Positions 50,592 to 53,711 of a stretch of DNA of 64,000 bases are shown here, one piece after another. The notes below the pieces were generated by a model. It was not told where the DNA came from and did no database searches. It worked only from the letters and a program-made list of their open reading frames with translations. Location of the stretch: assembly GCF_024362525.1 (NCBI RefSeq), contig NZ_CP101458.1, forward strand, positions 1,178,001 through 1,242,000, in the 5' to 3' direction. The stretch is from Natrononativus amylolyticus. Its GTDB lineage: Archaea > Halobacteriota > Halobacteria > Halobacteriales > Natrialbaceae. The first letter of the stretch is position 1. Every line of letters starts with the position of its first letter. Made by a program: the position numbers and the translations under genes.

Positions 50592-52091
50592 ATGGACCGA
50601 CGCAGACCTCCACAGACCGAGGAAGGCTGGTACGTGCTCCACGACTTCCGGACCGTCGACTGGGACGCCTGGCGGGACGCCCCGGACCGCCGCCGCTCGC
50701 GGGCCATCGAGGAGGGGATCGAGTATCTCGGCTCCTGTGAGCGACTCGAGGACGCCGACGAGGGCGGCTCGGCGACGTTCGCCGTGCTGGGCCACAAGGC
50801 CGACCTGCTCGTCTTGCACCTCCGGCCGTCGCTCGAGGACCTGGACGTGCTCGAGCGCCGGTTCGAACACACCGCCCTCGCCGAGTTCACCGAGCGCGTC
50901 GACTCCTACCTCTCGGTGACGGAGGTCTCGGGCTACATGTCCGAGGAGTATTTCAACGACGGTGCAGAAGTCGAGGACACGGGAATCGCCCGCTACATCG
51001 AGTCCCGGCTGAAACCCGAAATCCCCGACGCGGAGTACGTCAGCTTCTACCCGATGGACAAACGGCGCGGCGACGAGCACAACTGGTACGACCTCTCCTT
51101 CGAGGAGCGATCCGAGTACATGTCCGGCCACGGCGAGATCGGCAAGGGGTACGCCGGTCGGGTCACCCAGATCATCTCCGGCAGCGTCGGCCTGGACGAC
51201 TACGAGTGGGGGATCACCCTCTTTGCCGACGATCCCACCGACATCAAGGAACTGCTGTACGAGATGCGCTTCGACCCCTCGAGTTCGCGCTTCGGCGAGT
51301 TCGGCCGGTTCCTCTTCGGCCGCCGCTTTGCCCCCGAGAACCTCGGGGCGTACCTCGCCGGCGAGCAGGTGCCCAAGGAGGCGGCCAACGGACCACACGG
51401 CGGCCACGAACACGGGAGCGGCCACCCACACGACGATGGTGGCGACCACCACGACCACGCACACGGCGGCGATGATGGGGGAACCGGCGACGGCAGCGGC
51501 GACGGTATCCGCGGCGAACTCGAGGAGATGGGCGTCTACGGCGGCAAGCCACACGGCGAGGACGTCCACGCGGTCGTGCTCTACTCCGAAGCCGACCCCG
51601 ACGAGCTGTTCGAGGAGGTCGACGGCCTGCGAACGAACTTCGATCACTACGACAGCCACGTGAAGACGGCGGTCTACCAGGACGAGGGAGAGGCAAGCGA
51701 GAGCGCGGTCGTGAGCCTCTGGGAAACCGAACGCGCGGCGACCACGGCTGCAGGCTTCCTCGGCGACCTCCCGGACATCGTCCGGCAGGCGGGCGACGAC
51801 GAGGGTGACTCGTGGGGTACCATGGGCATGTTCTACACCGTCAAACCAGACCACCGCGAGGACTTCGTCGACACGTTCGGCGAGGTCGGCGAGGCGCTCG
51901 AGGGGATGGACGGCCACCGCAAGACGAGCCTGCTGGTCAACCGCGAGGACGAGAACGACATGTTCATCGCCAGCCGCTGGGACGCCCGCGAGGACGCGAT
52001 GGCCTTTTTCCGCAGCGACGAGTTCTCGGAAACCGTCGAGTGGGGCCGGGACGTCCTCGCCGACCGGCCGCGCCACGTCTTCCTCGCCTGA
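50592..52091 (+). CDS. pitA: PitA-like chlorite-dismutase/HemQ fold fused to an ABM domain
   Basis: A 499-aa haem-binding fusion known in haloarchaea. Residues 1 to about 265 carry the chlorite-dismutase/coproheme-decarboxylase-like fold (YVLHDFRTVDWDAWRDAP, KADLLVLHLRPSLEDL, SFYPMDKRRGDEHNWY, GLDDYEWGITLFADDPTDIKELLYEMRFD). A linker near 267-303 is rich in His/Gly/Asp (GGHEHGSGHPHDDGG then DHHDHAHGG), a likely metal-binding spacer. The C-terminus (about 310-499) is a dimeric alpha/beta-barrel ABM-like domain (MGMFYTVKPDHREDFVDTFGEVGEAL). A divergent PadR gene may regulate it. Chlorite activity, haem decarboxylation or other redox use is not decided. Confidence 0.88.
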   Translation: MDRRRPPQTEEGWYVLHDFRTVDWDAWRDAPDRRRSRAIEEGIEYLGSCERLEDADEGGSATFAVLGHKADLLVLHLRPSLEDLDVLERRFEHTALAEFTERVDSYLSVTEVSGYMSEEYFNDGAEVEDTGIARYIESRLKPEIPDAEYVSFYPMDKRRGDEHNWYDLSFEERSEYMSGHGEIGKGYAGRVTQIISGSVGLDDYEWGITLFADDPTDIKELLYEMRFDPSSSRFGEFGRFLFGRRFAPENLGAYLAGEQVPKEAANGPHGGHEHGSGHPHDDGGDHHDHAHGGDDGGTGDGSGDGIRGELEEMGVYGGKPHGEDVHAVVLYSEADPDELFEEVDGLRTNFDHYDSHVKTAVYQDEGEASESAVVSLWETERAATTAAGFLGDLPDIVRQAGDDEGDSWGTMGMFYTVKPDHREDFVDTFGEVGEALEGMDGHRKTSLLVNREDENDMFIASRWDAREDAMAFFRSDEFSETVEWGRDVLADRPRHVFLA

Positions 52092-52480: not shown

Positions 52481-52930
52481 GTGAACAGACGCGCGTTCCT
52501 CGCTTCCGTTCCGGCGATCCTGCTCGCGGGCTGTGCCACGCGGTTGGGGCTCGCCGAACGAGACGAGATCGCCGAAAAGCGCGTGGTCGTCGGGTACGGC
52601 GACTCGAGCGAGACGCTCGTCCGTCAGCGGTACGACGGCGGGGAGCCGTACTTCGACGGGGAGGGTCACGAGCTGTTCGGCGACGTCGCCCCCGACGACC
52701 GCCTCGAGGTCTCCGACGAACTCGACGGCGAACTCCGGTCGATGGACCCGGACGTCCGCTACGAGATCAGGGGATGTGCGGCGGGGGCTCGAGGCGAGGG
52801 TGACTGCCGGGAGGCGGTACTCGTCCGCGATGATTTCAACGACGTTGACGTCGGTGACATCGTGGACCTTCGCTACGGCGACCCCGGCGCGGGTGTCATT
52901 TCGGTACACCGGCGGCGCGAGAAACGATAA
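52481..52930 (+). CDS. Probable Tat-exported lipoprotein
   Basis: A 149-aa protein starting with GTG: MNRRAFLASVPAILLAGC. The twin Arg, short hydrophobic stretch and lipobox LAGC (Cys18) match haloarchaeal Tat lipoproteins. The mature part is acidic with beta-like repeats (VVVGYGDSSETLVRQRYDGG; GDVAPDDRLEVSDELDG) and two Cys (RGCAAGARGEGDC), possibly a disulfide. Family not recognised. Ends where the hairpin array region begins. Confidence 0.7.
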   Translation: MNRRAFLASVPAILLAGCATRLGLAERDEIAEKRVVVGYGDSSETLVRQRYDGGEPYFDGEGHELFGDVAPDDRLEVSDELDGELRSMDPDVRYEIRGCAAGARGEGDCREAVLVRDDFNDVDVGDIVDLRYGDPGAGVISVHRRREKR

Positions 52931-52977
52931 CTGCGGCGTGTCCTACCTCGAGCCGGAACAGTGCCACGGCCGGGAGT

Positions 52978-53304
52978 GCGAATCGGCGCAATTGCGCCGA
53001 TTCGCTCGATCCGGGGAAAGGCTGGTCGCTCGCCGAATTGTACCGCAAGCGCCGCAGGCGCTTGCGGGCCGACGACCGATGTGGAAGGCGCTCGCTGAGC
53101 GCCTGTAACGGAGGGAGGAGTGCTTTTGGTCCAGCCTGAGCGGAAGCGAAGCTTCCGCGAGGTCCAAAAGAGCTTCGCTCTTTTGAAGACTTTGCCGAGA
53201 GACAGCGCGCTGTGCGGTAGCTTCGCTGCCGTCAGCGCGCAAGACCGTGGTTCGAAAGACGCCTTCGGCGTCTTTCGTCATCACGAGAGAGCTTTGCTCT
53301 CTCG
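52978..53304. repeat. Array of eight short hairpins in a convergent intergenic region
   Basis: The 397-bp space between two convergent genes (52931-53327) holds no supportable gene but a dense series of hairpins. Positions: H1 52978-53005 (28-nt perfect palindrome, half-site GCGAATCGGCGCAA); H2 53043-53067 (11-bp stem, loop GCA); H3 53086-53104 (8 bp, GCT); H4 53140-53158 (8 bp, GAA); H5 53165-53185 (9 bp, TTC); H6 53215-53231 (7 bp with one T-G pair, TTC); H7 53253-53277 (11 bp, TTC); H8 53284-53304 (9 bp, TTT). CTTTTGG at 53123-53129 can also pair with CCAAAAG of H5 (53164-53170), enclosing H4. Stems differ in sequence, so this is not a simple tandem repeat. It may act as a bidirectional terminator, attenuator or recombination site. 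Confidence 0.75.
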
Positions 53305-53327
53305 AACGACAGCGCAAAAGGTGGGTT

Positions 53328-53711
53328 CTAGAAGTCGTGGTCCGGGTCGTCCTCGACCGCCCGTTTGAGCGAGTCGCGGCGGGATTTGGCGTCGCGGGCG
53401 GTCGCCTCGAGTAAGAACTCGTTTTTCGCAGAGACGGCGTCTCCGGCGGCCTCGAGTTCGTCGGGGCCGAGTTCGGTGGGGTCGCGCTCGACGAAGTCGA
53501 CGGCGAGTTTGTCCTTCTTGCCGGAGTACTGGACGGCGCCGACGACGATGCGCTCGAAGACGGGGTTGTCGGGTTCATCGATGACGAACAGGTCGCTTCC
53601 CTTGTACTCCTCGGTGCCGGTGATCGGCCCGAAGTAGTCTTCGACGGTGGCCTCCATGTCGGGGATTCGGTCCTCGAGGTGCTCACCACGGCGCATCTTG
53701 TACTCCTTCAT
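53328..53711 (-). CDS. DUF5611 family protein
   Basis: A 127-aa protein: MKEYKMRRGEHLEDRIPDMEATVEDYFGPITGTEEYKGSDLFVIDEPDNPVFERIVVGAVQYSGKKDKLAVDFVERDP, then an amphipathic C-terminal helix (AKSRRDSLKRAVEDDPDHDF). This matches the archaeal DUF5611 family (small conserved protein of unknown role). Start ATG 53709-53711; the longer frame MKRGKHSPVYSGA is not part of the family pattern. Ends next to the hairpin array. Confidence 0.88.
   Translation of the reverse strand: MKEYKMRRGEHLEDRIPDMEATVEDYFGPITGTEEYKGSDLFVIDEPDNPVFERIVVGAVQYSGKKDKLAVDFVERDPTELGPDELEAAGDAVSAKNEFLLEATARDAKSRRDSLKRAVEDDPDHDF

Follow-up and report, generated by a model that had tools for sequence, protein, structure and literature searches.

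The hairpin array on the 3′ side of the DUF5611 gene of Natrononativus amylolyticus is best explained as a composite of small non-coding repeats, in which a palindromic 3′-flank element (the base) lies behind the stop codon and two mobile two-hairpin units (dyads A and B) are placed in or next to it, the dyads possibly being mobilised in trans by a Y1 transposase. We assign this reading as a whole a probability of roughly 78%. The array is part of the 64,000 nucleotide long stretch of DNA that was analysed (the window). Comparison of related copies showed that the family is dispersed, that its stems are compensated and that dyads were repeatedly inserted into other hairpins and into IS200/IS605-type elements. 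The components of the array and the flanking genes are as follows (loci are given by our L numbers; hp, hairpin).

52481–52930, plus strand: convergent gene, 149 aa, no match in a Pfam search
52978–53005, no strand assigned: module D, perfect 28-nt palindrome, flanked by CCCCGG... and ...CTCCCGGCC as in other copies
53043–53067, minus strand: hairpin C2, perfect stem of 11 bp, loop GCA; variants in L007 and L116
53066–53077, minus strand: conserved box GGTCGTCGGCCC; GTCGTCGGCC follows downstream in 30 of 47 box copies
53086–53104, minus strand: hairpin C1, perfect stem of 8 bp, loop GCT (AGC on the minus strand); L024 has C1 with an altered loop
53110–53123, minus strand: box GCACTCCTCCCTCC, conserved in the composites
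53136–53189, minus strand: dyad B, approximately 54 bp, TCTT[hp 53165–53185]GACCTC[hp 53140–53158]TCAG; covered by CM R2 (53130–53197, E = 1.5e-15)
53140–53158: dyad B hairpin, perfect stem of 8 bp, loop GAA
53165–53185: dyad B hairpin, perfect stem of 9 bp, loop TTC
53190–53196, minus strand: partner arm of the base palindrome, GGCAAAG (GGCAAAA in relatives), from the sequence and the composites
53203–53243 (approximately), minus strand: imperfect hairpin of the base palindrome, from folding; variants in L123 and L161
53248–53309, minus strand: dyad A, 62 bp, TCGTT[hp 53284–53304]TGATGA[hp 53253–53277]AACCA; delimited by CM R1 (E = 1.5e-17) and by empty versus filled sites
53253–53277: dyad A hairpin, perfect stem of 11 bp, loop TTC
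53284–53304: dyad A hairpin, perfect stem of 9 bp, loop TTT
53310–53319, minus strand: outer arm of the base palindrome, TTTTGCGCTG, from the sequence, 8 nt past the DUF5611 stop codon
53328–53750, minus strand: DUF5611 gene (Pfam PF18446, E = 1.4e-24), stop codon at 53328–53330

The N-terminus of the 149-aa protein looks like a lipoprotein signal. Elsewhere in the window (50592–52091), a chlorite dismutase-like domain and an antibiotic biosynthesis monooxygenase-like domain form a fusion (Pfam PF06778 and PF03992).

Every hairpin coordinate of the first-pass annotation of this DNA matches the sequence. Of perfect stems with a 3-nt loop and a length of 8 bp or more, the region 52931–53327 (397 bp) contains six, whereas 500 dinucleotide shuffles of it averaged 0.03 and never exceeded one. 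Compared to shuffles the array folds with a z-score of −10 as DNA and −11 as RNA. Tandem duplication is, as had been stated, not the source of the hairpins, which have their geometry in common. Open reading frames of 82 and 191 aa cross the region, which could point to a decayed gene, an outcome that the annotation had named as speaking against its own proposal. Such a gene, and equally an origin by chance, are refuted by the shuffle and folding statistics, by a region that is devoid of called genes and by dozens of related non-coding copies. The array is the sole cluster of at least three such hairpins in the 460 kb scanned on the same chromosome. The claim that nothing else looks like it is correct for the window, but not for the genome, where related copies are located at C1:296 kb and C1:1658 kb. 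A CTTTTGG segment had been proposed to pair alternatively with the arm of hairpin H5, and this fold does exist. A conserved alternative fold is ruled out, because most relatives carry CTTTTCATC, CTTTTGATC or CTTTTAATC at this position. Rfam contained no match to the array, either at the gathering score or at relaxed thresholds.

In the base, TTTTGC and GGCAAAA enclose a hairpin and are followed by the CTCCTC box, hairpins C1 and C2 and module D. Read on the DUF5611 strand, the order in relatives is stop codon, (A)CGAA, TTTTGC, dyad A (sometimes), hairpin, GGCAAAAT, dyad B (sometimes), TTCGATNAAAAGCACTCCTCC, hairpin, GTCGTCGGCCC, hairpin and a palindrome between CCCCG and CCGGCC. Altogether, 47 CTCCTC-box sites were found; the GTCGTCGGCC box lies at most 260 nt away in the 30 that have it (expectation 0.013 each), and the CCCCG box is present in 21 (expectation 0.001 each). 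In L105 and L106 different palindromes are located between the module D flanks. Natrinema salsiterrestre (L024) has the base element behind its DUF5611 gene with neither dyad A nor dyad B and with a different base hairpin; most orthologous DUF5611 loci lack the element. The genes upstream of the copies are unrelated to each other and include eIF1A (its C-terminus was read from L003, L007 and L116). An upstream open reading frame could be scored in 26 of 35 element copies, and in 24 of these 26 the element starts 5–9 nt past the stop codon in sense orientation.

This position is also what would be expected if the whole composite were a selected haloarchaeal transcription terminator or 3′-UTR cassette, with hairpins that work in RNA and with incidental gain and loss of dyads, an explanation that deserves serious weight while staying well below even odds. 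The strong RNA fold fits it, some copies follow sequences resembling the 3′ ends of stable RNAs (L108, L161), T runs occur on both strands, and termination in vivo in Haloferax volcanii reaches 95% with T5C and 59% with one hairpin (PMC7237163). Like the intrinsic and T-stretch terminators of Haloferax (PMC7237163), the array combines hairpins and T runs behind a gene; unlike them, it belongs to a dispersed mobile family with fixed linkers. However, its longest T run is four nucleotides and a terminator scan gave a weak result (two found versus 0.7 expected). The absence of the element from most orthologous DUF5611 loci also argues against a terminator, as do the dyads in TnpA genes and transposon ends, where such a role would be senseless. 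Termination, bidirectional or not, and RNA attenuation, which the first-pass annotation had listed, are here candidate roles only. Under the composite reading, passenger dyads in 3′ flanks would give transcripts strong hairpins, which may make the 3′ ends more stable or assist termination at T runs close by.

In each dyad a fixed linker of 6 nt connects two perfect hairpins; the outer ends are also fixed, the stems vary with compensation and the 3-nt loops are free. The invariance of the linker is partly conditioned by the search pattern used. Dyad A contains the unit TSGTT[hairpin]TSA twice, in opposite orientation, and a relative of dyad B reads TCAA[hairpin]GTACCTC[hairpin]TTAG. Compensatory stem changes, which the first-pass annotation had itself put forward as the test, are present in the relatives: 13 double-changed cells were counted for dyad A (4.7 after shuffling) and 16 for dyad B (2.7 after shuffling), in both cases with 0 of 500 shuffles as high, and slid controls were far lower. 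Among 147 dyad loops, GAA/TTC (72), GGA/TCC (31) and AAA/TTT (20) are the common ones, and the loop-closing pair is C-G in 146. DNA mini-hairpins in which a GNA triloop closes on a G-C pair are extraordinarily stable (PMC4686876), and function or repair of the dyads as single-stranded DNA would fit this.

The three common loop triplets are approximately as frequent as their reverse complements (33/39, 16/15 and 10/10), which is expected if recombining arms flip the loop. Together with the fact that compensation is possible without selection on RNA, this could mean that the dyads are passive relics, with template switching or cruciform-based correction keeping the stems perfect and with homologous recombination or gene conversion, not transposition, spreading the copies. 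We consider this unlikely, since homology-driven conversion does not suffice for precise insertions between G and C at unrelated sites that have no common flanks.

Some dyads have one hairpin and the linker replaced by TCG[CCCGAAAATC nnn GATTTTCGGG]ATGA (L205–L207, L209–L211, L220–L223), which suggests that half-units recombine. At L252, a second place in the same genome, a relative of dyad A lies between the two hairpins of dyad B; therefore nesting recurs. At L005:1745–1870, a second copy of dyad A has its central linker interrupted by two additional hairpins (CGTGATG^TGACG).

Evidence for mobility comes from empty and filled sites, all compared between species. Downstream of eIF1A in two genomes of one genus, L304 contains dyads A and B and L305 neither, the sequence being otherwise continuous with small changes (these 3′ ends were located by the peptide GHIQ, which covered about half of the loci). 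IS200-type TnpA genes (PF01797) have the 3′ palindrome CCTCGGGG-TCAAG-CCCCGAGG, with the junction CCTCGGGGTCAAG^CCCCGAGG. It is empty in L288 and L291, and also in L297, which has the one-letter loop variant TCTAG; dyad A separates TCAAG from CCCC with exact junctions in L284, L285 and L286, and L295 has another dyad at this very base. Within the TnpA gene, a B-like dyad follows CCGAAG in L292, L293 and L297 (with small changes in L276 and L285) and is missing in L284, L288 and L291, while L286, L288 and L296 have other dyads in the coding region. Insertion at L160 and L158 predicts that their flanks, once joined, exist elsewhere. Those of L160 occur uninterrupted at 12 places in 11 of 125 genomes, two of them letter-perfect and the others with 1–3 mismatches; the flanks of L158 occur at 20 places in 14 of 125 genomes with 1–3 mismatches in 51 bases. 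Backward controls of both had no match in the 125 genomes.

In the window, dyad A is located between the G and the C of the base palindrome; for this insertion no empty site at the same locus was found in a close relative, L024 differing also in the base hairpin. Among 59 distinct dyad A copies the preceding base is G in 58 and the following base is C in 56, and the compared empty and filled sites revealed no target duplication. At orthologous sites that are empty in one genome and filled in another, the insertion point falls exactly between the G and the C.

Several targets are themselves hairpins. Dyads were found in the loops of unrelated palindromes, such as the TnpA 3′ end, a TnpB-linked palindrome (L160, L162), which was met both filled and empty, and TTTTTGCGCC...GGCGCAAAAA (L158). 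Gapped local comparison of the two flanks of 61 distinct copies gave a complementarity score of at least 10 in 30%, compared to 4.6% of mismatched pairs, and ungapped comparison at offsets below 8 nt showed no excess. Because the ungapped scan was null and the gapped excess partial, we propose hairpin targeting for a subset of copies only, as a partial trend to which the base element contributes. IS200-type TnpA genes (L284–L288, L292, L293, L295–L297, L299) were repeatedly struck by different dyads at the same small set of codons and at the 3′ palindrome; some of these insertions are in frame and add peptides such as SSENRRFSGSRET.

The first-pass annotation had suggested a search of haloarchaeal genomes, which identified two-hairpin units with conserved linkers at unrelated loci of most related genomes. 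With blastn, the array region matched 30 of 41 haloarchaeal genomes, with up to 18 matches per genome and 10 in its own. The dyad A model matched 40 of 41 genomes of the family, and in a sample of the phylum 42 of 247 genomes were positive, all 42 from the same order and including other haloarchaeal families. Dyad B is narrower, with matches in 25 of 41 genomes. Matching DNA is also present in 27 haloarchaeal plasmid records and is almost never annotated there; the phage records searched contained no match.

The clustered, intergenic palindromes with conserved linkers could also be a protein-binding array like BIMEs, for instance for topoisomerase or a chromatin protein. This would be a very improbable explanation, since the copy number is low (0–44 dyad A model matches per family genome, often for both strands of one place), the stem letters vary and many copies are solitary. 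Among the roles that had been proposed for the array, recombination comes nearest; the proposals missed that the array is made up of two-hairpin units that are dispersed and move separately. Two genomes from a different haloarchaeal family (L194–L223) have dyad A within a second dispersed repeat, CCAAAGCCCCAGCCG...CGCTCGCTG[dyad]CGCTCCTC...GCGGTGCTTGCG. In L140–L143 dyad A adjoins sequences resembling the 3′ half of a tRNA (GGCGTGGTTCAAATCCCA), which could be tRNA-derived integration remnants.

How might the dyads move? In the composite reading they would move as folded single-stranded DNA, be recognised by stem geometry and linker letters, and depend on a mobiliser acting in trans, for which an IS200/IS605-type Y1 (HUH) transposase is the likeliest candidate. 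This chemistry, with a Y1 HUH transposase acting on single-stranded DNA, involves exact, duplication-free insertion, hairpins and fixed adjoining letters (PMC3116915, PMC3119063). The numbers of dyads and of Y1 matches correlate (rho 0.54, p 0.006, n = 25 genomes), a correlation open to confounding by mobile-element load and by dyads lying in Y1 elements. Some Y1_Tnp matches have dyads 41–48 bp behind them, inserted in the 3′ palindrome of the match, and some genomes with many dyads (G006 and G021) have no Y1_Tnp match. The step of Y1 mobilisation in trans is tentative and, taken by itself, somewhat improbable.

Two known kinds of element are close. Like the dyads, SMR-A of Haloquadratum walsbyi (HqIRS42, 43 and 55; Dyall-Smith et al., 2011, PMC3119063) is haloarchaeal and non-coding, has inverted ends, generates no target duplication and is inserted in near-terminal palindromes of IS605-type elements and PATEs. 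It is approximately 110 bp long with prominent terminal inverted repeats, whereas the dyads have 54–62 bp, outer inverted letters of approximately 5–7 nt and two separate hairpins; compared with SMR-A as described, the dyads differ further in their fixed linker, their presence in several haloarchaeal families and their location, both in 3′ flanks and within TnpA genes. REPINs and RAYTs (Bertels and Rainey, 2011, PMC3116915) share with the dyads inverted doublets of short palindromes, conserved outer letters, compensatory changes and ties to Y1 transposases of the IS200/IS605 superfamily. Two inverted REP copies forming one unit define a REPIN, and the dyads have this structure (TSGTT[hp]TSA twice, inverted). 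Unlike REPINs, they have no GTAG tag, their outer letters being TSGTT/AACSA, copy numbers are lower and hairpins often serve as targets. No dedicated RAYT was found for them.

GTAG- and CGTC-tagged REPs (PMC3733652) resemble the dyads in their short stems and loops, in being located downstream of genes and in forming dimers; their tags are different, the text of that paper names no haloarchaeon, and for the dyads the inserted unit itself is shown. PATEs and IS200/IS605 elements of haloarchaea have subterminal palindromes and cause no target duplication (PMC3119063), like the dyads. They are targets of the dyads, which are gene-less and far shorter than most PATEs (terminal-only PATEs of 52 bp are known). 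The dyads work like REPINs and SMR-A, yet fit only part of either definition. We found no description of the dyad family in a literature search that misses most subscription papers. The kind of element is known, from bacteria (REPIN) and Haloquadratum (SMR-A), and the family, the dyad architecture and its spread seem to be new.

With odds that we put slightly short of even, the dyads might form an order-wide, gene-less family that moves as folded single-stranded DNA, targets hairpins between G and C, exchanges half-units and repeatedly strikes the genes and ends of the IS200-type transposases on which it possibly depends. They would then be parasites or silencers of transposons and builders of arrays behind host genes.

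With exact ends, a target rule and empty sites in hand, what was an odd intergenic sequence is now a defined mobile family of a whole archaeal order that is open to testing. The mobiliser of SMR-A was unknown in 2011, and the movement of the small Haloquadratum repeats was termed enigmatic (PMC3119063); the dyads add many cases to this enigma and provide a clean substrate for experiments. That the stems are perfect and capped by C(GNA)G loops suggests that selection or repair acts on single-stranded DNA. Since the base element lies in sense orientation behind stop codons, a link between repeats and archaeal 3′ ends becomes testable.
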